From a virus: a DNA stretch of 21,364 nucleotides. Shown here piece after piece: positions 6,267 to 20,436 of the stretch. The translations under genes were made by a program, and so were the position numbers. Location of the stretch: positions 1 through 21,364 of the IMG/VR virus record IMGVR_UViG_3300046011_010624; one strand, 5' to 3'. Position 1 is the first letter of the stretch; the number at the start of each line of letters is the position of its first letter. The notes below the pieces were generated by a model. That model made no database searches. It was not told where the DNA came from and saw only the letters and a list, made by a program, of their open reading frames with translations.

Positions 6267-6533
6267 TCACAGTGGTAACTTACCTCTAGGTTTCATAAAG
6301 TTATTTTCCTCAGCTTCATTCTGTATTTTATCTTTTAACGATTGATTAATTAATTTGGATATGGATTCTATTTCTATATCTATTTCTTCGCAGTATTGTA
6401 TCACCGCATCCATATAACCTATTTTTTCTCGTAATACCTTTTCTTCAATGTATAGTGAAAATTCGTTAGGAGATCTAAATTTCTTTGTAATAATTAAGCT
6501 ATCTGTTAAGATGTATTCTATTGCCTTATCCAT
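6267..6533 (-). CDS. 33: Late transcription co-activator gp33
   Basis: From the ATG at 6533 the product has 88 residues. Its C-terminal half reads GYMDAVIQYCEEIDIEIESI, then SKLINQSLKDKIQNEAEENN and FMKPRG, similar to T4 gp33 around MSYLEATTAFLEENSIP and IIEKIQSEAIDENLLRPS. In T4 gp33 tethers RNA polymerase and the sliding clamp to activate late promoters, which fits the TATAAATA motifs found elsewhere in this window. The start at 6533 has GGAG 4 bases upstream; an in-frame ATG at 6557 has none. The ATG lies inside the last codons of the bilin reductase gene (8-base overlap), so its translation is probably coupled to that auxiliary gene. Confidence 0.75.
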   Translation of the reverse strand: MDKAIEYILTDSLIITKKFRSPNEFSLYIEEKVLREKIGYMDAVIQYCEEIDIEIESISKLINQSLKDKIQNEAEENNFMKPRGKLPL

Positions 6534-7212
6534 GATTCTCCGGAAATAATACTTCATCCATAAATTTTGCGAAAACTTCTTTATCTACCCCAAACGTTTC
6601 CATCATGGCAGGAGTATGAGGATTCAATTTTTGGTTTTTACAATAATGATTTTGTCGATGAACAAAATCTGCTCCTTCTACTTTTGTTCCTATATTATAA
6701 AGATAATAATCTAAGTTGTCAAGTACCATCTGTTCTAGTTGATCAAATTCTTCACTAGTTTGAATGTTGCCGGCAGCTACCATTTGCGGACTAAAAATTT
6801 TTCTAGCCCATTCGGGTAGGTCTCTTGGTTTAGACCATTTAACATTCGTCATGGTGCCCTGAAACCAATCATATACTCTTGAATTTCCGACAAAGGAAAA
6901 ATCGTGAAAGGCTCCGGTTATTTTATTTTTACCGCAGACAATATCAAATCCAAATATTGGATCGGGAGAATTACGATGAGGATAGATACACATATGCATG
7001 ACCCACATCTTTTTAGTTTCAGATGCGTCTACGATTTCTATGTGCGCACGTTTAAAATTTTCAGACTTCCATAAGAAGTTTTTCCAGGTAAAATTATCTA
7101 CATGTATTTCATACTCTGGATTTATAGTTTCTTTCTCATAATTAGCAAAACGAGAAATAATTTTCTCAGACAAAGATCTAGCTCTGGGCCAAGCTTGAAA
7201 TTCTTCAGTCAT
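6526..7212 (-). CDS. Ferredoxin-dependent bilin reductase (PcyX/PebS type)
   Basis: The 228-residue product belongs to the ferredoxin-dependent bilin reductases, which reduce biliverdin to phycobilins using host ferredoxin. Key signs are RAHIEIVDA (Glu59), VMHMCIYPHR (His73), DPIFGFDIVCG (Asp90) and ITGAFHDFS (100-106), which align with Glu76, His88 and Asp105 of cyanobacterial PcyA. The C-terminal HYCKNQKLNPHTPAMMETFG is the usual last conserved block. Length is typical of PebS and PcyX. PebS occurs in cyanophages; PcyX, a phycoerythrobilin-forming enzyme of the PcyA lineage, is known from marine viral metagenomes next to a heme oxygenase. The other genes here favour the PcyX setting, but separating the two needs a tree. 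The start overlaps the heme oxygenase end by 8 bases, with AAGGA 5 bases upstream. Confidence 0.85.
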   Translation of the reverse strand: MTEEFQAWPRARSLSEKIISRFANYEKETINPEYEIHVDNFTWKNFLWKSENFKRAHIEIVDASETKKMWVMHMCIYPHRNSPDPIFGFDIVCGKNKITGAFHDFSFVGNSRVYDWFQGTMTNVKWSKPRDLPEWARKIFSPQMVAAGNIQTSEEFDQLEQMVLDNLDYYLYNIGTKVEGADFVHRQNHYCKNQKLNPHTPAMMETFGVDKEVFAKFMDEVLFPENHG

Positions 7213-7738
7213 TGTATTCCTTAATCATTTCTATATTAAAGTCAAACGCTCTATTAGCTTCATCCGCCATAGAAACATCTAACTTAGATCTGATTTTGCC
7301 TATTAACGAAGGTATATCCTCAAACTTAAACATATTATTTGGACCAGGTAACAATTTAGCTAAAGCCTGTCCTCCGAATAAATCGCCAGTATGACGAACG
7401 TAGATATGTGCCATTAACCTATGTTTATCGCTGCGTATGTTTTCAAGATAGTCTAGATAATCTATAGTGGAGTTTCTTAAATTATCAGTATCCACTCTAT
7501 TTTCAGTTAAGGCGGCATAATCCAATGTGATGCCCTTGGTTCTTTTCAAATCCGGCATGTCCTCAAATATGCCAAGTTCATCTCCATATTGTTCTAATCT
7601 GGAATAAAGCACTCTTAATTGATACAAATAATCAATATACTTATTCGTATCAACTTGTCCTTTAAAAATAGATTTAATAAAGGATTGTGATTCTGCTTCT
7701 TGATGTTTTTGCCAAGTCAGTTCTTTTAATGTACTCAT
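7205..7738 (-). CDS. ho1: Heme oxygenase (biliverdin-forming)
   Basis: The 177-residue product is a heme oxygenase, which opens heme to biliverdin IXalpha, CO and iron, supplying the substrate of the adjacent bilin reductase. The proximal heme ligand is His12 in LTWQKHQEAE. The distal helix carries HIYVRHTGDLFGGQALAKLL, with the diagnostic GDLFGGQ at 118-124. The C-terminal block ADEANRAFDFNIEMIKEYND matches the end of cyanobacterial HO1. The protein is clearly shorter than cyanobacterial HO1 (about 240), with trimmed loops in the middle, but all core helices seem present. It begins 2 bases after the stop of the 2OG oxygenase with no good ribosome-binding site, so translation is probably coupled. 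Confidence 0.9.
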   Translation of the reverse strand: MSTLKELTWQKHQEAESQSFIKSIFKGQVDTNKYIDYLYQLRVLYSRLEQYGDELGIFEDMPDLKRTKGITLDYAALTENRVDTDNLRNSTIDYLDYLENIRSDKHRLMAHIYVRHTGDLFGGQALAKLLPGPNNMFKFEDIPSLIGKIRSKLDVSMADEANRAFDFNIEMIKEYND

Positions 7739-7740
7739 AG

Positions 7741-8343
7741 TTACATATTATGTCTTGTGTTTGATGGAAATGCCAAATAAGGCCTACGGTCAAATCTATA
7801 GTCTCTGTACTTACCTAATGCGTCTACATAATGTACAAATACTTGTGTTTGTCTATTGCCTTTATATTCGTCTCTCCAATGAGGTAGAACATCGCCCTTA
7901 TAAACAATCATGTCGCCAGGTTCTAGATATAATGCTTTATGCTTACCCTCTAAAGTCTCAAACCAAATTTCCCATGGTTCAGGATTATTTGATATACAAA
8001 CGGTTGCAGAATATTCGCAGCTTGGTCTATCGGTATGTCTTGCCATATCTGAACCTGCATAGTATATTCTCATATAGCTATAAGTAGGATATAGAGTTTT
8101 ACCGGTAACTTCTTCAATCTTTGGTTGAAGATATTGACCCAATGTTTCTGTACAAAAGGAACCATAATAAGGAAAAGAATTTTTACATTGATCATCTTGA
8201 AAAAAGGTAACGTCTTTTTCATCTGCACCTGCGTGCATGTAATTTACCTTTTTCATTAATTCTAATTCTGTATCAATGAAAACACATAATTCTTTAGGCA
8301 ATGCTTTCTTTACTACTTGATATAAATTTTTTTCAAACGACAT
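7741..8343 (-). CDS. 2OG-Fe(II) dioxygenase (prolyl-4-hydroxylase-like)
   Basis: The chosen start at 8343 gives 200 residues (MSFEKNLYQVV...) and has GGAG 7 bases upstream. The in-frame ATG at 8403 would lie at the edge of the tmRNA. The iron-binding triad is visible: His103 and Asp105 in ARHTDRPSCEYS and His155 in DVLPHWRDEY, with Arg164 in GNRQTQVFVHY for 2-oxoglutarate. It is therefore probably an active Fe(II)/2OG oxygenase. Such single-domain enzymes are common in marine T4-like phages, where substrates are mostly unknown. Here it is the first gene of the operon that continues with heme oxygenase and bilin reductase. Whether it acts in that pathway or on a protein or nucleic acid cannot be told. 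Confidence 0.85.
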   Translation of the reverse strand: MSFEKNLYQVVKKALPKELCVFIDTELELMKKVNYMHAGADEKDVTFFQDDQCKNSFPYYGSFCTETLGQYLQPKIEEVTGKTLYPTYSYMRIYYAGSDMARHTDRPSCEYSATVCISNNPEPWEIWFETLEGKHKALYLEPGDMIVYKGDVLPHWRDEYKGNRQTQVFVHYVDALGKYRDYRFDRRPYLAFPSNTRHNM

Positions 8344-8360
8344 AATTGATCTCCAAAGGT

Positions 8361-8392
8361 TCGGAGTGTTTTGGTAATAAGGTACACTCCGA
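8361..8392 (-). terminator. Hairpin between tmRNA and the 2OG oxygenase gene
   Basis: TCGGAGTGT and ACACTCCGA (8361-8369 and 8384-8392) form a perfect 9-bp stem with a 14-base loop. On the minus strand it follows the tmRNA coding piece by about 10 bases and is followed by only a short CCTTT. It could be a weak terminator, a processing signal that frees the tmRNA 3' end, or a leader structure of the 2OG oxygenase gene. Confidence 0.5.
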
Positions 8393-8411
8393 TAAAACCT
8401 CATCTAACAGA

Positions 8412-8459
8412 TCAAGCTGCTAGAGCGTAGTACTCGTCATTTGCGATTACTTTATTTGC
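8412..8459 (-). other. tmRNA proteolysis tag frame ANKVIANDEYYALAA
   Basis: The resume codon is GCA at 8459-8457 and the frame ends with TGA at 8414-8412. The encoded tag is ANKVIANDEYYALAA, with the tmRNA-charged alanine normally added before it. The last ten residues differ from the E. coli tag end (ANDENYALAA) at a single position, and the terminal ALAA is the signal read by ClpXP/ClpAP-type proteases. Confidence 0.92.
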
Positions 8460-8551
8460 TTCTTCGGTCAGGTAGTCCCAGCCCTACGGCTTTCACATTG
8501 CCGTGTTGTCTGTATCCTTACTCATTGCCCTGTCGAAACCATGTCTGGCCC

Positions 8552-8638
8552 ATCAAAAGCATTCTTACTATCCATGCCTTCACGGTAATTACTCCGAGGT
8601 CTCACTTCATCTAGTCGGCGTCCCGTTTAGAATGCTTT
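8552..8638 (-). other. tmRNA intervening segment with precursor stem
   Basis: This 87-base stretch lies between the CCA end of the acceptor piece and the 5' end of the coding piece and should be removed in maturation. Its ends (8554-8565 and 8629-8640) form a perfect 12-bp inverted repeat, CAAAAGCATTCT, which continues into the acceptor stem. The precursor would have a stem of about 21 bp with one G-U pair and one C-A mismatch. Confidence 0.85.
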
Positions 8639-8720
8639 TGGTGGACCAGGCGGGAGTCGAACCCGCGTCCAGAACACCTTTCATTCAACTTCATACAACA
8701 ATTCTTTTAACTGTGGCAGA

Positions 8721-9005
8721 TTAGACATAACGGTCTATAAAAATTCCGCGCACAGTACTTTTTGCTAATATTCTTTGTTCTTTTATTGACTCGTAGAACA
8801 CATAGTTTCTTATCCACTCCGTATCTTTTTCATAATTATAATTTCTTAATAATCTATGAGATTCTTGCAATGCCAATAGTTTACTTTGTTCTTCCCAATT
8901 AACTTCTCTATTCTTTTCTGCATGCCATCTTTGAACTTGGTCATTTCTTATTGACCATTGCGATAGTTCATGTAACAAGGCAGATGATACTTTAGGAATT
9001 ACCAT
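8721..9005 (-). CDS. Hypothetical protein, 94 residues
   Basis: The product is soluble, helical and rich in Trp, Arg and Glu (WSIRNDQVQRWHAEKNREVN, then QSKLLALQESHRLLRNYNYE). It ends with VRGIFIDRYV just before the tmRNA acceptor piece. No known domain is recognised. The ATG at 9005 is preceded only by an A-rich stretch with no clear Shine-Dalgarno site; the stop of the upstream membrane-protein gene lies 4 bases before it, so translational coupling is likely. It is probably co-transcribed with the tmRNA, which would then be cut out of a longer transcript. Confidence 0.6.
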   Translation of the reverse strand: MVIPKVSSALLHELSQWSIRNDQVQRWHAEKNREVNWEEQSKLLALQESHRLLRNYNYEKDTEWIRNYVFYESIKEQRILAKSTVRGIFIDRYV

Positions 9006-10753: not shown

Positions 10754-11845
10754 TTAGCCATAGGATACTCCCCCTGGCCATGAACGTCTTGTTTTTCCGG
10801 ATGCAATATCTCCAGAAACTGCTCCTGTATTTGATATAGTATTATACACTGACAAAGGATCAAACCCACCTCCGGCTGCCCCAAACGCATACATACCTCT
10901 ATCACCATTAAAAGTTATTCCCGCAGGAGTTCTTCTAGGAGAGCCTGCCCCAGTTATATCCCCAGAAATAGATCCAGTATTAGTAACTCTATTAATTGTA
11001 TTAACGATAGTAGCCATCGTATTTCCATACGCAAAAACACAATTGCCATTACCGTATTCAGTGGCAGTAACAAAGTCCCGAATAGATCCTGAGGTACCTA
11101 CGTTACCACCAATAACACCCGTATTAGTAACATAATTGGCAGTATTAATTACTAGAGGAGCTGTACCCGCTCTAACATTTTGATATCCAAATATGTACAC
11201 ACCTCTATCGCCGCCATACCCCGCGCCGCTGCTATTTTGCCTTTGTGTGCCTACGAGAGAAACATCAGAAGCAAGAATACCCGTGTTTGATACTTGATTA
11301 GATACCGTTGCATATGTGGAAGAGAACCAACCATACGCAAAAATTGATCTATCTGTCCCATATGGGCACCCAGAATGGTATTTTCTAACAGAACCAACAG
11401 TAGAAGTATCTGAACTTAGAACACCTGTATCGGATAGTAAATTAGTCATATTGAAAGCGCCCGTCCCCGAACTAGTTCCACCAAAAAAGATTCCTCTAGT
11501 AGTACCGTATTCGCTTCCTCCAGCATGAAATCTTGCAGTGCCAACACCGCTAGTTTCAGAACCAAAAACGCCAGTATTCAGTACTCTTAGCATATTATTC
11601 ACCATGCTATAGCCGCCACTGATACTATTTCCAAACCCAATCATTGCGGAAAAACTTCTACTAAAGCTAGATTTATTCCAAAGATCAGATAATCGTATTG
11701 TTCCGCTAGCTTTACCCGCAAGAGTTCTTACGGCGCTTTCATTTAAGCTAACTGAGGACGTGGCAGATCTACCTAACTCAACACCGACGTGGTTAGCTAA
11801 ATCAATTCTTACTGGGGAAGCGGGTGACCCAGCAGGTGTTGGCAT
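10754..11845 (-). CDS. Tail fibre-like repeat protein B
   Basis: The 363-residue product starts with an N-terminal domain (residues 1-60: MPTPAGSPASPVRIDLANHV ... GKASGTIRLSDLW) that it shares with the protein encoded at 12539-13669, probably the part that docks on the baseplate or a fibre base. The rest is about six imperfect repeats of about 45-48 residues with the pattern NTG-hxxxD-xxVGTxR, then YGxDRGhxxFGY. This is like kelch or beta-propeller type repeats and is rich in Gly, Ser, Thr and Asn, typical of phage receptor-binding parts. The last repeat ends abruptly at GVSYG, so the structure may close with an N-terminal strand. Shine-Dalgarno GGAG lies in the end of the upstream gene. Confidence 0.8.
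   Translation of the reverse strand: MPTPAGSPASPVRIDLANHVGVELGRSATSSVSLNESAVRTLAGKASGTIRLSDLWNKSSFSRSFSAMIGFGNSISGGYSMVNNMLRVLNTGVFGSETSGVGTARFHAGGSEYGTTRGIFFGGTSSGTGAFNMTNLLSDTGVLSSDTSTVGSVRKYHSGCPYGTDRSIFAYGWFSSTYATVSNQVSNTGILASDVSLVGTQRQNSSGAGYGGDRGVYIFGYQNVRAGTAPLVINTANYVTNTGVIGGNVGTSGSIRDFVTATEYGNGNCVFAYGNTMATIVNTINRVTNTGSISGDITGAGSPRRTPAGITFNGDRGMYAFGAAGGGFDPLSVYNTISNTGAVSGDIASGKTRRSWPGGVSYG
11684..11724 (-). repeat. 41-bp exact direct repeat, copy 1 (in fibre B)
   Basis: This copy begins ATCAGATAATCGTATTGTTC on the + strand and encodes part of the shared KASGTIRLSDLW segment. It is identical over 41 bases to 13508-13548 in fibre A and in the same orientation, while the flanks diverge. 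It could serve as a recombination point for exchange of fibre tips. Confidence 0.9.
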
Positions 11846-12538: not shown

Positions 12539-13669
12539 TTAGGGGTTGTTACTATAATCTTGAAAAGACGCCATATATTCTTTAGCTATAACTAATGCAG
12601 CAGAAGGATTTATCTGCGTTTCTGTAGCAAACTCTATACCATCTATTTCTCGTAATTGCGCCCTGAGTCGGGAATTGGTAGAAGACCGATTATATCCTCC
12701 ACAAACATATCCCCTTGTGCTAGAATTTAATCCTGCTGCAGACGATCTAGCTACCGCCAATCCTGCTGCAGGATTAATCAGAGTTTCTGTGGCAAACGAT
12801 ATACCATCTATTTCTGAATAAACCGTTATGTCTCTTTGATTAAAACCTCCACCGCACCAGTATCCGTTTGTACTAGAATTGACGCCTGCAACTTCCCACC
12901 TAGTGGTAGCTAACCCCATGGCCGGGTTAACAGATGTGCGATTACTAAAAATAATTCCATCTACTTCATTAAAAGTTGTCCCATATCCCGCGCCAAAGTC
13001 ATTTCCTCCGGCATAATAACCTTTAGATGCAGATGAAACACCCTCTAATTTGTATCTAGTTCTAACTGAGGCAGACGTGGATAAACTAGTTTCTGTAGGA
13101 AAGTCTAATCCATCAACTAGGCTGCTTGTTACTCGACTAAAATTGCACCCCCCTGCCCAAAATCCTTGTGTTTCGGAATTTGTGGCGCCATATGCACCCC
13201 TGGCACCTGAAGTGGCGGAAGATGTAAATAATGTTTGAGTTGCAAATACTAAACCATCAACACCTGTAGTTAAACTCTGAGCTGCATCAAATCCTGTACC
13301 TTGGTATCCCGAAAATCTTGCTGCAGCATAACCTTTAGTTCTCGAATTCGCTCCGCTAGAATGTCTACCTGTTCTCAATTGTGCAGCAGGATCAATAGTG
13401 GTTTCTGTAGGAAAATCTAATCCATCTAAATTATTCCCTGGAGCTGTAAAACTAGAATCAGTATTTGTAATAAATCCTTTCGTCACTGTGAAGGATTTAC
13501 TCCACAAATCAGATAATCGTATTGTTCCGCTAGCTTTACCCGCAAGAGCTCTTACCGCAGACTCGCCTAACGAAATTGTGGCAGTAGCAGATCTACCCAC
13601 CTCGACACCGACGTGACGAGCTAGATCTATTCGTAGTGGATTCGAGGGTGTACCGGCAGGTGTTGGCAT
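12539..13669 (-). CDS. Tail fibre-like repeat protein A
   Basis: The 376-residue product shares the first 60 residues with fibre B (MPTPAGTPSNPLRIDLARHV ... ARALAGKASGTIRLSDLW pattern). The remainder has six repeats of about 48-50 residues with the pattern VDGhxFATET-hxNPAA-hxxxR, then AGxNSSTxGYxxGG, again like kelch/beta-propeller blades. The repeat sequence is unrelated to that of fibre B, so the two proteins have the same base with different tips. The start lies 5 bases after the MazG stop without a clear ribosome-binding site, so translation is probably coupled. It would act in receptor recognition at the cell surface. Confidence 0.8.
   Translation of the reverse strand: MPTPAGTPSNPLRIDLARHVGVEVGRSATATISLGESAVRALAGKASGTIRLSDLWSKSFTVTKGFITNTDSSFTAPGNNLDGLDFPTETTIDPAAQLRTGRHSSGANSRTKGYAAARFSGYQGTGFDAAQSLTTGVDGLVFATQTLFTSSATSGARGAYGATNSETQGFWAGGCNFSRVTSSLVDGLDFPTETSLSTSASVRTRYKLEGVSSASKGYYAGGNDFGAGYGTTFNEVDGIIFSNRTSVNPAMGLATTRWEVAGVNSSTNGYWCGGGFNQRDITVYSEIDGISFATETLINPAAGLAVARSSAAGLNSSTRGYVCGGYNRSSTNSRLRAQLREIDGIEFATETQINPSAALVIAKEYMASFQDYSNNP
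13508..13548 (-). repeat. 41-bp exact direct repeat, copy 2 (in fibre A)
   Basis: Identical over 41 bases to 11684-11724, same orientation. It lies at the end of the shared N-terminal domain, at the point where the repeat regions of the two fibres begin to differ. Confidence 0.9.
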
Positions 13670-15215: not shown

Positions 15216-16211
15216 TTAAACTATTTCTACTAGATTGTTTTTGAAGGTTTTCCAACAATTTTCCCAATCCCACTTTTTACTTTTTTCCTGAACCAGCTCT
15301 CGATTCAAATATAAGCATCTTTCTATAGCTAATTCTAAATCGTCGTGCATAGTACCGGTTTCAGGCTCTATAATATCTATTGGCCCAGGCACCGGATATG
15401 CTGCTACGGGAGTACCTAAGCTCATGGCTTCTATTATAACCAATCCAAATGTATCTACTTTACTAGGAAAAGCTAATACGTCAGCTATGTGATACCAATT
15501 GGCTAGTTCCGATCCTGTCCGATAGCCAACGAACTGAACATTAGTATATTTAGATTCTAAAGTTTTTCTATGCGGTCCGTCGCCAACAATTACAACTTTA
15601 TATTTATGCTGAAGTTCGCAAACTTTTTCTATGTCCTTCTCTTTACTTACTCTACCAACATATAAAATCATTGGTGGTTCATTTCTATTTCTTTTTTTCG
15701 TAGGAACTAAAGTATTTCTATCAACACCTCGAGTCCAAGATTTTACTGGTCCAAAAAATCCTCTTTTGTGTAATTCTTTTACCATTGTTGAGGTATTTGT
15801 CAATACTATACCTGAATGTTTATGAAACCATCTTAAGTATGACCAAGTTATATTTTCTGGAACTTTATAAATTTGATTTAAGAATTCAGGAAATTTAGTG
15901 TGGTAACTAGTATTGTAACGATAGCCGCGTTTGTCAAGATAAAATCTAGCAAACAGACCAATAGGACCTTCCGTGGCGATGTGTATATAATCCGGAGCCA
16001 TCTCCTCAATCTTCTTGCCGATCTGCCAAGGAAGGCTAAGTTTAACTTCAGGGTAGCCTGGGCAACTAAAATGTAAGAACTGCCTGGGATCAAGGTATAG
16101 AATGCTATACCCGCCCAGAATAGCGTGTGTCTCAATATTCTTAAAAGTTGTGACCACGCCATTAATTTGCTCCGGTAGATTATCGGTAATGATTAGAATT
16201 TTCTTATGCAT
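15216..16211 (-). CDS. GT4 glycosyltransferase, Agt-like (diacylglycerol glycosyltransferase type)
   Basis: The 331-residue product is a GT-B, family GT4 enzyme. The N-terminal Rossmann half has ITDNLPEQINGVVTTFKNIE, then IHIATEGPIGLFARFYLDKR and TSYHTKFPEF. The C-terminal half has MILYVGRVSKEKD, VVIVGDGPHRKTLE and VDTFGLVIIEAMSLGTPVAA, where the usual E-x7-E motif appears as D253-x7-E261. This type of sequence stands next to PlcP in alphaproteobacterial genomes, where Agt adds glucose or glucuronate to diacylglycerol made by PlcP and so replaces phospholipids under phosphate starvation. Here a PlcP-like gene lies just upstream. Other GT4 acceptors (for example glycolipid or LPS parts) remain possible. 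GGAGG stands 4 bases before the ATG. No signal peptide; peripheral membrane action expected. Confidence 0.75.
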   Translation of the reverse strand: MHKKILIITDNLPEQINGVVTTFKNIETHAILGGYSILYLDPRQFLHFSCPGYPEVKLSLPWQIGKKIEEMAPDYIHIATEGPIGLFARFYLDKRGYRYNTSYHTKFPEFLNQIYKVPENITWSYLRWFHKHSGIVLTNTSTMVKELHKRGFFGPVKSWTRGVDRNTLVPTKKRNRNEPPMILYVGRVSKEKDIEKVCELQHKYKVVIVGDGPHRKTLESKYTNVQFVGYRTGSELANWYHIADVLAFPSKVDTFGLVIIEAMSLGTPVAAYPVPGPIDIIEPETGTMHDDLELAIERCLYLNRELVQEKSKKWDWENCWKTFKNNLVEIV

Positions 16212-16366
16212 CGACCCTCCACCTTAAAACTATCAAACTTTAACCAATAAGACATAGTTTTTAAAGTTTGTTCACACGCGGCTTGTTCTGAAAATTCTAA
16301 AGTTACTTTACCCGGAATGTCTTTTGGATCGGTTATGTGTACTGCTATCAATATCATCAACCACAT
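16193..16366 (-). CDS. Small gene between the PlcP-like and Agt-like genes
   Basis: This 57-residue frame starts at ATG 16366 with a strong AGGAG 6-7 bases upstream and stops at 16193-16195. It covers the whole 96-base gap between its neighbours and overlaps both. The N-terminus is hydrophobic (MWLMILIAVHIT), then PGKVTLEFSEQAACEQTLKT and FKVEGRCIRKF follow with two cysteines (31 and 53). It looks like a small membrane-anchored or exported protein of the kind often missed by length cut-offs. Its function is unknown; its position suggests co-translation with the lipid-remodelling pair. Confidence 0.6.
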   Translation of the reverse strand: MWLMILIAVHITDPKDIPGKVTLEFSEQAACEQTLKTMSYWLKFDSFKVEGRCIRKF

Positions 16367-17117
16367 TGTCGCTCTCCTGAGTCCATGTTACTATTTCCCA
16401 TCGACCATCGTGATGCTCAACTAATGCAGTCATGCTTTCAACCCAATCACCATCATTCATGTAGGTCACACCATCTATTTCTTTTATTTCTGCGTGATGT
16501 ATATGCCCGCATATTACACCATCAAAGCCTCGCTTCTTACAATATCCTGCTAAATTTTTTTCAAACTGAAACATAAAGTCTACTGCTTTTTTTACTTTGT
16601 GCTTAAGAAAACGGCTAAGGCTAAAATACCCAATACCAATTCTATGTAAGAACCAATTAAATTTACTATTAACTGATAAGATGAAATCATATGCTTTGTC
16701 TCCTAAAAATGATAACCACGGTGCTAGTCTAGTGATGCCATCAAATAAATCACCATGTACTACTAAATAATGTTTTCCATCTGCACCGATATGCTCAATT
16801 TGGTTATACATTTCCACCATACCAAAATTTAAGTTGTATTGCAGAAATGGTCTTAAAAATTCATCGTGATTGCCTAAAACATATACAATTCTTGTATCAC
16901 GTTTAGCGTGTCCCAATATTCTACGTACAACATTGGTATGACTTTGTTTCCAACGCCACTTGTTTTGTTTTATCTTCCAGGCATCTATAATATCGCCAAC
17001 TAGATAAAGTGTATTGCAGGTATTGTGCTTAAGAAAATTATTTAATGCTTCAGCCTTGCAATCTTTCGTTCCAAGGTGAATGTCTGAGATGAAAATGCTG
17101 CGGTATGTTTTGTGCAT
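16308..17117 (-). CDS. PlcP-like metallophosphoesterase (phospholipase C type; LpxH-related)
   Basis: The 269-residue product is a calcineurin-like phosphoesterase with all metal motifs: SDIHLG (Asp12, His14), GDIID (Asp42), GNHDE (Asn83, His84), VVHGD (His121) and GHIHHAE (His205, His207). The family is often annotated as UDP-2,3-diacylglucosamine pyrophosphatase. Features such as YRSIFISDIHLGTKDCKAEA, KWRWKQSHTNVVRRILGHAK and YMNDGDWVESMTALVEHHDG follow alphaproteobacterial PlcP (S. meliloti SMc00171 type), which cuts phosphatidylcholine and phosphatidylethanolamine to diacylglycerol under phosphate limitation. The adjacent Agt-like gene supports this over LpxH. The last 20 residues are hydrophilic and overlap a small gene. 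The start has no clear ribosome-binding site, though the leader is structured. Confidence 0.75.
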   Translation of the reverse strand: MHKTYRSIFISDIHLGTKDCKAEALNNFLKHNTCNTLYLVGDIIDAWKIKQNKWRWKQSHTNVVRRILGHAKRDTRIVYVLGNHDEFLRPFLQYNLNFGMVEMYNQIEHIGADGKHYLVVHGDLFDGITRLAPWLSFLGDKAYDFILSVNSKFNWFLHRIGIGYFSLSRFLKHKVKKAVDFMFQFEKNLAGYCKKRGFDGVICGHIHHAEIKEIDGVTYMNDGDWVESMTALVEHHDGRWEIVTWTQESDNVVDDIDSSTHNRSKRHSG

Positions 17118-17121
17118 AATA

Positions 17122-17161
17122 GGTCTGGTTACGAGTTCCAGAGTCGTTCTATCGACACGAC
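17122..17161 (-). promoter_or_regulatory. Two adjacent hairpins in the leader of the PlcP-like gene
   Basis: Two 5-bp stems lie side by side: GTCGT/ACGAC (17143-17147 with 17157-17161) and TCTGG/CCAGA (17124-17128 with 17138-17142), ending 4 bases before the start codon region. It is not a tRNA. It may control translation of a gene that lacks a good ribosome-binding site. I do not recognise a known riboswitch. Confidence 0.35.
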
Positions 17162-17172
17162 CGATTTATTCT

Positions 17173-17199
17173 ATTATATATTTGGCAACAAAACTGTAA
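17173..17199 (-). promoter_or_regulatory. Possible sigma70-like promoter for the PlcP-Agt operon
   Basis: On the minus strand TTACAG (17199-17194) and TATAAT (17178-17173) are separated by 15 bases, shorter than ideal. The -10 box matches the consensus. No Pho-box repeat (CTGTCAT type) is visible nearby. Confidence 0.35.
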
Positions 17200-17200
17200 T

Positions 17201-18199
17201 CTATTGAATGGAATCTAAAATATTTTCTAAGGAATCTGGGAAAGTATATTTAGGAGCCCATCCTAAAGCATTGCCTATGGCATTTATACTTGGAACTCTG
17301 CTGGTTACATCTTGATACCCCGAACCAAAAAAGTCTCCGCTGGATTTAACTTTAACATCTACATTTTCTACAATGCCTCTGTTTTTCAATCTATCAATTA
17401 AAAGAACAGCAACATCTCGTACAGATAAATTGTTCCATGGATTACCAACATTAAAGATTTTTCCATTTGCCGCTTCTTCATTTAGCAAAATTAATTTAAG
17501 TGCTTCTACACCATCTCTAACATCAGTGAAGCATCTCTTTTGATGTCCGCCATCTACTAAAGTAACTTCTCCTCTTTGTAATGAATCTCCGATAAGCTGA
17601 GTAATTAATCTTGAAGATCCCTCAGACGTAGACTCCAAAGAATCTAAATAGGGACCTACCCAATTGAAGGGGCGGAACAAAGTAAATCTAAATGCCTTTT
17701 CCTGATTCATTGCGAAAATGACTCTATCCAACAACTGCTTGGAACAAGCATAAATCCAACGTGAATATTTGATAGGACCATAAACTAGATCAGAACTGTC
17801 CTCATCGAAAGGCGCGGTGCTCTTACCATATACCTCGGAGGTGGAAGGGAAAATAATTCGTTTGTTCAAAGCATGTGCTAGCTTAATTACTCGAAGGTTT
17901 TCTTCAAAGTCTAGTTGAAAAACTCTTAGAGGTTGCTCTACATAAAGTTTAGGAGTAGCAATTGCCACCAATGGCATAATGACATCCGATTCATGAATTA
18001 GTGAATCTATAAGATCACGATCCTTCATAATATCAGCTTTGTGAAAAGTAAATCTAGAATCCTCTGGCAACATACCAACTCTTGCCGTGTTTAGATCTAC
18101 ACCTGTGATTTCCCATTCTTTAAATTTTTCATCTTTAAGAATAGAATTAGTTAAGTGATAACCAATAAAGCCATCAACTCCCAATATTAAAAGTTTCAT
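17201..18199 (-). CDS. ArnA-like NAD-dependent UDP-glucuronate decarboxylase/epimerase family protein
   Basis: The 332-residue product is an extended short-chain dehydrogenase with GVDGFIG (7-13) for NAD. It follows the C-terminal domain of ArnA closely: VIMPLVAIATP, FQLDFEENLRVIKLA, RIIFPSTSEVYG, RWIYACSKQLLDRVI, RFTLFRPFNWVGP, QKRCFTDVRDGVEAL and FNVGNPWNNLSV. The catalytic Tyr150-x3-Lys154 and the Ser-Glu pair near 121-122 are present, as in ArnA, which oxidises and decarboxylates UDP-glucuronate to UDP-4-keto-pentose. The formyltransferase half of ArnA is absent. It is the last gene of a sugar set behind it (cupin, C-methyltransferase, Rossmann protein), so an unusual pentose or modified sugar is a likely product. 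Its stop/start overlap with the previous gene is TAATG. Confidence 0.85.
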   Translation of the reverse strand: MKLLILGVDGFIGYHLTNSILKDEKFKEWEITGVDLNTARVGMLPEDSRFTFHKADIMKDRDLIDSLIHESDVIMPLVAIATPKLYVEQPLRVFQLDFEENLRVIKLAHALNKRIIFPSTSEVYGKSTAPFDEDSSDLVYGPIKYSRWIYACSKQLLDRVIFAMNQEKAFRFTLFRPFNWVGPYLDSLESTSEGSSRLITQLIGDSLQRGEVTLVDGGHQKRCFTDVRDGVEALKLILLNEEAANGKIFNVGNPWNNLSVRDVAVLLIDRLKNRGIVENVDVKVKSSGDFFGSGYQDVTSRVPSINAIGNALGWAPKYTFPDSLENILDSIQ

Positions 18200-18936
18200 T
18201 ATAGCCTCTCTAAACGTAAATTGTCAGTGTTTAATATAATATCTTTTAGTTGTGCAGTAATACAATCCTCATTCTCAAACGAAGAGTAGGCATCTACACC
18301 ATGATTACTTTTTATGTGAATAGAATTTGTCAATCCAAAGTTTAGCACAATGGTTTCGTCTTTCGTTGTTATTATGGTTTTTAAATCTCTAGATTCACCG
18401 AAACTTATTCTAAAATTTGAAATACCATCTATAATATAACTACCCGGATTAGATGTGTAAAACTGATTATCAGTATTTTTAATATAATTGTCTATGGATA
18501 TTATATGAGGAATCCACTCAGAAATCAATCCCTTATCTATAGTCCAATCGTGTAAAATACTAATCAAATTATTTTTGAAAGGTTCTAAAATCTCAAAAAT
18601 TTTTGAATATCTGTACTGACTTAGAATATAGATAGGAACACCTTTGAAAGCGGACCAATCCTTGGCCGCTTTCTTTTCTTCAGATGAATTAAATCCTTTT
18701 TCTACAAAAATAATCTTAGGATTAAATTTCTTAGAATGGATAACATCCGAAAGATGGTCCTTCGTTGCGGAAGCTATAAAGACAGGTATGTTTTGAAAAT
18801 CTGTAGGAGCAGTTTCTCTAGTAAAATCTGAGACTAAAGAATTATTTCCTATTCGTACAGAATTAAAACCAAATGTCTTAAGCTTAATTTTTAATAACTG
18901 AGACCACTTACCCGTTCCATAAACTATTGCATGCAA
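18199..18936 (-). CDS. Rossmann-type oxidoreductase-like protein (Gfo/Idh/MocA-like N-terminus)
   Basis: The 245-residue product starts MHAIVYGTGKWSQLLKIKLK, a nucleotide-binding beta-alpha-beta start, and continues with IPVFIASATKDHLSDVIHSK and IIFVEKGFNSSEEKKAA. These are similar in layout to Gfo/Idh/MocA-type dehydrogenases, whose EKP motif corresponds to VEKGF here. The C-terminal half (about 120-245) is beta-rich (IIDGISNFRISFGESRDLKT, then TIVLNFGLTNSIHIKSNHGV) but shorter than usual for the family. Its neighbours make sugar modification likely. Reaction and substrate cannot be deduced. It overlaps the methyltransferase end by 13 bases. Confidence 0.6.
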   Translation of the reverse strand: MHAIVYGTGKWSQLLKIKLKTFGFNSVRIGNNSLVSDFTRETAPTDFQNIPVFIASATKDHLSDVIHSKKFNPKIIFVEKGFNSSEEKKAAKDWSAFKGVPIYILSQYRYSKIFEILEPFKNNLISILHDWTIDKGLISEWIPHIISIDNYIKNTDNQFYTSNPGSYIIDGISNFRISFGESRDLKTIITTKDETIVLNFGLTNSIHIKSNHGVDAYSSFENEDCITAQLKDIILNTDNLRLERL

Positions 18937-20057
18937 ATAACTTCTCCAGTGTGTCCACGCTCAACAAGTTTCTTTTTGATGTCATCATATACGTTCCATG
19001 CTGTAACTAGAATAAGTGCATCCTTATCTAAGTGCTCTGGTTTGGTAATCATGATATTAGTGCCAGGGAAATAGCAACCTTGTTTTAATTCATTGTCATC
19101 GACTACACCAATTAGATTTTCATTAACTAAATCTAGTGTGTAAAGTGCGGTTACTGCTTTAGCTGCAGCACCATACGCAATGAATTTTCTATTTCCTAGA
19201 AGTTCTCTCATCCTAGTTTGTCTTGCCGCGATCAAATCTACAATTTGTTCGAGAGAATTATCTGTTATTTCTGTTTTAGTAAGCTGAAACTCCCCGGATT
19301 TCTTTCTAGCATAAATTCTAAAACTAACGCCGTGAGTAGTTATAGGTTGAACATCCTCGACAATCAGTCCATGCTTTTGACATAGTGTAGCAAAAGAGTA
19401 TGGGGTGTAGTAATCTATATGTTCGTGATACACATTATCCAAATAATTGCCTGAAGTGATGCCATCTCTGTGTCCGCATTCTGCAACAAGTAATCCATTT
19501 GGCTTCAATGCCATTACGATGCCATCCATTACATCGTGCATATCTGGAATGTGAGCAAGTACATTATTTGCACAAACAACATCAAAATATTCTCGCCATT
19601 CGTTATTGTCTACCATCTTCGTACTAAAGAAGTCTGTATAAACAGGAATTCGATCGTCGAGATGATCTGCTCTTAAATATTCTGAAGGTTCAACTCCATA
19701 AACAATCCAATTTTTAGCTTTAAATTGTTTTAATAGATAACCGTCGTTGCTTCCAATTTCGAGAACTGCTCCGGACTCTCCATGTATTGTAGCAACAGTC
19801 TCAGCATATTCTTCGAAGTGTTTTCTAAAAGACTGAGACACCCCTGACTTATACCTATAAGATGAAAAGACTCCGTTAGGCTCTGGTGCGGATACTAATT
19901 GCAGATGTCCGCAGTTAGAACAATAATTAAGATCTAAAGGAAACTTATCATAATTAGGTTCATAAAAAAGAGCATTGGCAACAGGAGAATCTGGTAATGA
20001 TAACCAAGGTTGTAAGTTATCATTACCGCAGCATCGACAAGAATTATACGTTTTCAT
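18924..20057 (-). CDS. SAM-dependent sugar C-methyltransferase (NovU/TylC3-like)
   Basis: The 377-residue product has the three-part layout of NDP-sugar C-methyltransferases. An N-terminal zinc-binding part has CRCCGN (7-11) and YCSNCGHLQL (Cys46, Cys49). The SAM-binding part has VLEIGSNDGYLLKQF (98-112), YGVEPS, FDVVCANNVLAHIPD and GLLVAECGHRDG. The C-terminal part has GNRKFIAYGAAAKAVTALYT, then LIGVVDDNELKQGCYFPGTN and ALILVTAWN, as in Methyltransf_14. YHEHIDYYT fits the catalytic His region of these enzymes. They add a methyl group to a keto-deoxy sugar nucleotide. It overlaps the cupin gene by 14 bases, and no ribosome-binding site is visible, so translation is coupled. Confidence 0.88.
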   Translation of the reverse strand: MKTYNSCRCCGNDNLQPWLSLPDSPVANALFYEPNYDKFPLDLNYCSNCGHLQLVSAPEPNGVFSSYRYKSGVSQSFRKHFEEYAETVATIHGESGAVLEIGSNDGYLLKQFKAKNWIVYGVEPSEYLRADHLDDRIPVYTDFFSTKMVDNNEWREYFDVVCANNVLAHIPDMHDVMDGIVMALKPNGLLVAECGHRDGITSGNYLDNVYHEHIDYYTPYSFATLCQKHGLIVEDVQPITTHGVSFRIYARKKSGEFQLTKTEITDNSLEQIVDLIAARQTRMRELLGNRKFIAYGAAAKAVTALYTLDLVNENLIGVVDDNELKQGCYFPGTNIMITKPEHLDKDALILVTAWNVYDDIKKKLVERGHTGEVICMQ

Positions 20058-20436
20058 ACTGTTCGTGCAGAGGAGTTATCTTAACAATATCTTCATCATA
20101 GGTATTTGCATCTCGTTGATGCTCAGATACAACTACCATAATTGAATCATCGGTAAAAACCATTTCGTGATCAATTAATGGACCTGTTTTAAATAGATCA
20201 CCCGGCACAAATTGTTCTTTGTGGATTTTAGTTTCTCCATGATTACGCCAATAGTAATCCATGGTACCTGTTACTAAATAACAAGTATGAGTATCTGTCT
20301 TATGGTAATGATTAGCGCGCAAGGCACCTTTCTTAGACCAAATCATTTGAACATTCGCAAGATCATGAACTATAGGTAGGATTTTACCGCGATGATCTTC
20401 AAACCCTTGTTCTAAGGGTAGTTTATGAGTTTCCAT
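20044..20436 (-). CDS. Cupin-fold protein (sugar epimerase-like)
   Basis: The 130-residue product is a small cupin related to RmlC-like/WxcM-like proteins: DHRGKILPIVHDLANVQMIW, then ALRANHYHKTDTHTCYLVTG (metal or substrate His in HYHKTDTH), QFVPGDLFKTGPLIDHEMVF. This order matches cupin motifs 1 and 2. The next genes are a sugar C-methyltransferase and an ArnA-like enzyme, so an NDP-sugar epimerase or isomerase role is likely. The ATG at 20436 has AAAGGAAA 3-7 bases upstream. It may also be a regulatory or binding cupin. Confidence 0.75.
   Translation of the reverse strand: METHKLPLEQGFEDHRGKILPIVHDLANVQMIWSKKGALRANHYHKTDTHTCYLVTGTMDYYWRNHGETKIHKEQFVPGDLFKTGPLIDHEMVFTDDSIMVVVSEHQRDANTYDEDIVKITPLHEQYENV

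Follow-up and report, generated by a model that had tools for sequence, protein, structure and literature searches.

Structure of the locus and its tmRNA gene

The window, i.e. the whole stretch of DNA analysed here, is an entire virus record of 21,364 bases and represents a fragment of a T4-like phage, probably of freshwater origin. A megablast search detected no close relatives among annotated phages. Its gp32 is nearest to that of Pelagibacter phage HTVC008M (56%), followed by those of T4-like cyanophages, and other genes in the window encode a DNA end protector, tail tube, baseplate hub, gp59-type helicase loader, gp33-type coactivator, heme oxygenase, PhoH and a bilin reductase, the best solved relative of which is PcyX (5owg, E 3e-46). 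Between a RecB-like exonuclease gene and a hemO-pcyX-gp33-gp59-gp32 block, we identified a complete circularly permuted (two-piece) tmRNA gene on the minus strand (8700-8362) by Rfam, ARAGORN and reading of the sequence. The features of this region are as follows.

8721..9005, minus strand: upstream small ORF, function unassigned; its stop codon lies ~20 nt before the tmRNA
8639..8700, minus strand: acceptor piece with GUUGU arm of the inter-piece helix, T-arm, acceptor 3' strand, discriminator and CCA (Rfam RF04321/RF01850 alignments, ARAGORN, sequence, covariation; 5' end approximate)
8666-8650, minus strand: T-arm (sequence reading)
8649-8643, minus strand: acceptor 3' strand, CUGGUCC (sequence reading)
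8642, minus strand: discriminator A (sequence reading)
8641-8639, minus strand: encoded CCA (sequence reading)
8552..8638, minus strand: intervening segment, 87 nt, closed by the stem AAAGCAUUCU/AGAAUGCUUU (sequence; removal from the precursor expected)
8362..8551, minus strand: coding piece with 5' acceptor strand, GGUUUCGAC, tag frame and 3' pseudoknot-type stem (Rfam, ARAGORN, covariation, sequence; 3' end placed at the last conserved stem)
8551-8545, minus strand: 5' acceptor strand, GGGCCAG, G3-U70 present (sequence reading)
8412..8444, minus strand: tag reading frame GCA...UGA, ANDEYYALAA; resume codon GCA 8444-8442, stop UGA 8414-8412 (ARAGORN, Rfam alignment register, UA at -5/-4)
8391-8384/8369-8362, minus strand: 3' stem (sequence reading)
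7741..8346, minus strand: downstream gene, a conserved tmRNA neighbour; PHROG 'ferrochelatase' family by name, no Pfam match
6267..7738, minus strand: heme oxygenase, PcyX-type bilin reductase and gp33-like late-transcription coactivator; syntenic downstream block

RF04321 (tmRNA_permuted) matched 8700-8412 on the minus strand over model positions 1-213 of 213 (119.9 bits, E 2.6e-23; curated threshold, 47), and RF01850 (beta_tmRNA) matched 8751-8347 on the same strand over the whole model (111.3 bits, E 1.7e-33; threshold, 84) as the best of its clan. These E-values exclude chance as an explanation of the tmRNA call, and ARAGORN independently reported a permuted tmRNA with the tag ANDEYYALAA. 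The acceptor piece comes first and the coding piece second, with the acceptor stem forming between both. The two Rfam models, ARAGORN and the sequence thus agree with the original prediction of a full permuted tmRNA in this order, recognizable by permuted tmRNA models, and the encoded CCA and the G3-U70 pair that it named are both present. Its location, 8400-8705, was the right place, but the 3' extent was short, as the gene runs ~40 nt further to ~8362; the strand, left unstated, is minus. The gene is a well-supported new case of a system already known in phages, since permuted phage tmRNAs have been published (PMC9004378).

In E. coli, the frame-setting signal UAGUC lies just before the resume codon, and its key base, A86, is four nucleotides upstream (PMC2481249). 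In the window, UAAUC precedes the GCA at 8444 and matches the UA at -5/-4 of that signal, whereas the GCA previously proposed to open a 15-residue tag, ANKVIANDEYYALAA (ANKVI...), is preceded by GAAGAA. The tag is therefore the 10-residue ANDEYYALAA. The UA at -5/-4 was found in 104/104 distinct viral permuted tmRNAs parsed, a result that ARAGORN's own rules may favour. The E. coli tag is ANDENYALAA, from which the window tag differs by one residue, as the likeness claimed at the outset implied; the window tag is also near Burkholderiales tags and has a hydrophobic -LAA end.

Conservation among related phages

The related loci are IMG/VR contigs, mostly freshwater according to our reading of the sample identifiers. 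In the window and in L002, L004, L005, L008, L012 and L261, the order is exonuclease, (small ORFs), permuted tmRNA, dioxygenase-like gene, hemO, pcyX, gp33 and gp59; gp32 follows gp59 in all of these except L261, which contains an insert before hemO and whose locus ends before that point. The product of the dioxygenase-like gene (7741..8346) is probably a 2-oxoglutarate/Fe dioxygenase-like protein. L020 and L021 lack hemO-pcyX and keep tmRNA-dioxygenase-gp33-gp59-gp32, and in L027, L029, L031, L033 and L051 the tmRNA lies between the exonuclease and gp33, at a greater distance from gp33. L016 and L019 have no tmRNA in this interval, and their exonuclease gene directly adjoins the dioxygenase gene. 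Because it is present or absent in the same interval across relatives, the tmRNA is a gained-and-lost module at a fixed place. Some phages at least can do without it, since none was seen in certain relatives of the same group, L016 and L019 included.

To assess conservation, 15 distinct phage tmRNAs were aligned over the T-stem, acceptor stem, intervening stem and 3' stem (29 pairs, 435 cells). Of the helix cells, 97.5% are paired, compared with 72.7% in shuffles; two-sided changes occur in 20/29 pairs, and the covariation score is 0.637 versus 0.154 when shuffled and ≤0.126 when slid. This degree of pairing, together with the two-sided changes, indicates that the phage tmRNA is kept by selection. 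Acceptor pairing, the loss of which in related phages had been put forward as a sign against the assignment, is kept in 15/15 with two-sided changes, and the stem of the intervening segment has such changes in 8/10 pairs. G3-U70 is found in 15/15 aligned phage tmRNAs, although this pair was partly built into the search patterns used to collect viral tmRNAs. The inter-piece helix also covaries (GUUGU/ACAAC, AUUGU/ACAAU, GCUGU/ACAGC). Permuted tmRNA patterns were found in >100 viral contigs, and in 104 distinct viral permuted tmRNAs the acceptor positions are paired in 728/728 cases across 11 distinct acceptor stems, with 3/7 pairs fixed by the search pattern behind this set and the other 4 free. 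All relatives tested (11/11) pass both the tmRNA_permuted and the beta_tmRNA models, beta likewise being the best subtype.

Lineage of the tmRNA

By sequence comparison, the tmRNA lineage is betaproteobacterial (Burkholderiales type), rather than alphaproteobacterial, SAR11/SAR116-like or Prochlorococcus-like cyanobacterial as the original prediction held. The best clade-specific Rfam model is beta_tmRNA. In an ML tree built from a short alignment (62 sequences, 168 columns, including the window and 14 other phage tmRNAs), the window and all sampled phage tmRNAs group with permuted tmRNAs of a Burkholderiales-type order (clade, 91.1/83; inner clade, 98.5/99), and the alphaproteobacteria and cyanobacteria lie on long separate branches split at 100/100. 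The fine branching of this tree is limited by the short alignment and by exchange between blocks (see below). DNA similarity was detected in 151/250 genomes of the Burkholderiales-type order, so termed because it was reached from a Rhodocyclaceae genome (L120), versus 9/190 of Alphaproteobacteria; many of the betaproteobacterial matches are short T-arm matches, part of them to standard tmRNAs. Model choice, tree and the alphaproteobacterial count rule out an alphaproteobacterial, SAR11 or cyanobacterial subtype, SAR11 itself not being named among the sampled genomes. The encoded CCA is absent from nearly all cyanobacterial permuted tmRNAs sampled.

As for the donor, a methylotroph (Methylophilaceae) was considered and rejected: hexulose-phosphate synthase was above the cut-off in 0/8 genomes tested, most of which had given the best DNA matches. 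A Polynucleobacter-like freshwater member of the Burkholderiaceae is only a guess. A pattern combining the tRNA-like end with the spacer start had no match in named genomes; the matches of a looser 16-base pattern were mostly due to chance, yet supplied anchors for the genome searches. One permuted tmRNA found among the bacteria, L180 (in the genome of L075, Caldimonas mangrovi), has an odd tag, ANDSIYLKRA, and a long tree branch.

Exchange of the acceptor block and diversity of tags

The tmRNAs of L005 and L008 are 100% alike in the leader and 97% in the coding remainder, whereas the T-arm/acceptor/intervening block differs (46% in the intervening segment). L053 and L056 display the reverse pattern, with 98-100% in the block, 46% in the leader and 41% in the remainder. 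Over 5,356 pairs, the correlation between block identity and identity of the rest is only 0.08. The T-arm/acceptor/intervening block seems to move between tmRNA genes without the leader and tag, and recombination at its conserved edges, GGUUCGA and GGUUUCGA, would account for this. Assembly chimeras are possible in single contigs, although the L005 type recurs in four contigs and the L008 type in seven.

Tags at orthologous phage loci vary (ANDEYYALAA, ANDNSYRMVA, ANDSEYALAA, ANDEQFALAA and ANDAFYGEDRLAA). Among 104 distinct viral tags, 83 end in LAA, 10 in MAA, 4 in IAA and 3 in MVA; the ARAGORN tag for L293 was discarded as a frame misparse, the usual register reading ANDEKFALAA. The tag ANDNSYRMVA, with an MVA end in place of LAA, was observed in the tmRNAs of L005-L013, L039 and L041, and the proteolysis step may therefore differ in the L005/L008 type.

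Tags of 23-33 residues were found in the viral permuted tmRNAs of L268, L272, L281, L292, L300, L332, L343, L348, L361, L363 and L368. They mostly start with A[NK]A[NDS]TF and mostly end with an ordinary NDxxFALAA-like stretch, and between the long-tag tmRNAs of L272 and L348 there are 3 synonymous codon changes but 0 non-synonymous ones. A search for their source in other phage proteins gave no convincing match.

Proposed function

We consider it very probable that the phage carries a working ssrA gene of the permuted betaproteobacterial type, which serves ribosome rescue together with host enzymes. This reading is based on the gene anatomy, the tag frame, conservation with covariation, synteny, the betaproteobacterial affinity and the absence of SmpB from 15 related contigs, including those of 143, 155 and 222 kb; the steps of processing, charging, SmpB use and proteolysis are modelled on established tmRNA biology. 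The tmRNA would be transcribed within the exonuclease-tmRNA-dioxygenase-hemO-pcyX-gp33-gp59-gp32 block. Against this reading, neither a promoter nor a T4-type late motif is conspicuous at the gene. As to the late-infection role first proposed, the location of the tmRNA ahead of gp33-gp59-gp32 hints at expression in the early or middle phase and not the late one. Host tRNA-processing enzymes would cut out the 87-nt intervening hairpin to leave an acceptor piece of ~62 nt and a coding piece of ~190 nt, joined via the acceptor stem and the GUUGU/ACAAC helix. After charging by host AlaRS through G3-U70, the phage tmRNA would be delivered to ribosomes stalled on broken mRNAs by host SmpB and EF-Tu; no SmpB was found in the related contigs, and the phage presumably relies on that of the host. 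The stalled chain would gain Ala plus ANDEYYALAA and be directed to ClpXP-type proteolysis. The likely benefit would be more ribosome recycling and the clearing of stalled fragments during destruction of host transcripts.

Other purposes can be envisaged. Viral permuted tmRNAs might form a distinct, fast-recombining pool in which the tRNA-like acceptor/intervening cassette is swapped between tmRNAs with different tags, and the tags, including the conserved long ones in a subset, act as a phage-specific label beyond host proteolysis; we regard this combination as unlikely. Slightly less probable is that the main purpose of the gene is to provide a phage-chosen tag redirecting stalled proteins from or to particular proteases or adaptors. 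The variation of tags among orthologous phage loci and the long tags of some distant viral tmRNAs fit such a purpose, but the window tag is one substitution from that of E. coli and near those of Burkholderiales, most viral tags keep the LAA end (83/104), and tags differ between bacteria too.

It is more doubtful still that the phage RNA is a decoy or inhibitor titrating host SmpB or AlaRS and thereby blocking host trans-translation. In phage DS6A there is little beyond a tRNA-like domain, and inhibition of host tmRNA by a similar molecule has been described (PMC4131195); the lack of an SmpB gene (0/15 related contigs) is also compatible with this possibility. However, a tRNA-like domain alone would suffice for such a role, whereas the phages also conserve the coding piece, the resume signal, the tag frame and the 3' stem, with covariation. 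Finally, ssrA is a common integration site and Melnitz has been proposed to have exchanged with a temperate phage (PMC9004378), but it is highly improbable that the gene is a passenger, either a host ssrA captured and retained by chance or the decayed leftover of integration or imprecise excision. A leftover would decay, whereas the phage tmRNAs display strong compensatory covariation, a conserved position in many diverged phages and permuted tmRNA patterns in >100 viral contigs.

Comparison with known tmRNAs

The gene read as a rescue tmRNA resembles betaproteobacterial permuted tmRNA (RF01850) in piece order, encoded CCA, G3-U70, inter-piece helix, ANDExxALAA-type tag and 3' stem. It differs in the intervening segment, which is 87 nt in the window (viral range 53-108, median 68) versus 8-63 nt, mostly ~30, in 14 betaproteobacterial loci sampled; the hairpin sequence GGUAGGCGAUGACC common in the latter is absent from the window, which has a longer stretch instead. 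The tmRNA genes of mycobacteriophages and Bacillus phage G are presumably standard one-piece genes. They likewise belong to tailed phages, although the hosts differ (PMC4131195).

A 2021 survey predicted 53 of 133 unique phage tmRNA structures to be two-piece, 50 of the 53 from marine or aquatic phages, and placed phage tmRNAs in each of three host lineages (PMC9004378). In the OM43 phage Melnitz, a two-piece ssrA lies directly upstream of the coactivator gene (PMC9004378). Like Melnitz and marine myophages (PMC9004378), the window comes from a T4-like aquatic phage and has its permuted ssrA upstream of the gene for the late-transcription coactivator; unlike in Melnitz, hemO-pcyX separate the tmRNA from gp33. 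The Melnitz ssrA groups with alphaproteobacterial tmRNAs and carries a glutamine riboswitch (PMC9004378), whereas the window tmRNA groups with betaproteobacterial ones and Rfam found no riboswitch family in the window. The few phage two-piece tmRNAs described so far are thus joined by a well-supported case of betaproteobacterial type, and with the wider viral set one can directly test whether phage tmRNAs serve ribosome rescue, host interference or protein re-labelling.

The presence of the hemO-pcyX cassette (6526-7738) alongside a betaproteobacterial-type tmRNA also provides a host lead for pcyX phages. Elsewhere in the window, 10754-11845 and 12539-13669 encode two paralogous proteins, conserved at the N-terminus (53% over 109 residues) but divergent at the C-terminus, which resemble virion-attached fibre or receptor-binding proteins, and 15216-20436 contains a sugar-modification module comprising a glycosyltransferase, an LpxH-like phosphoesterase, a methyltransferase and a UDP-4-keto-pentose/ArnA-type dehydrogenase (413 bits, above the cut-off).
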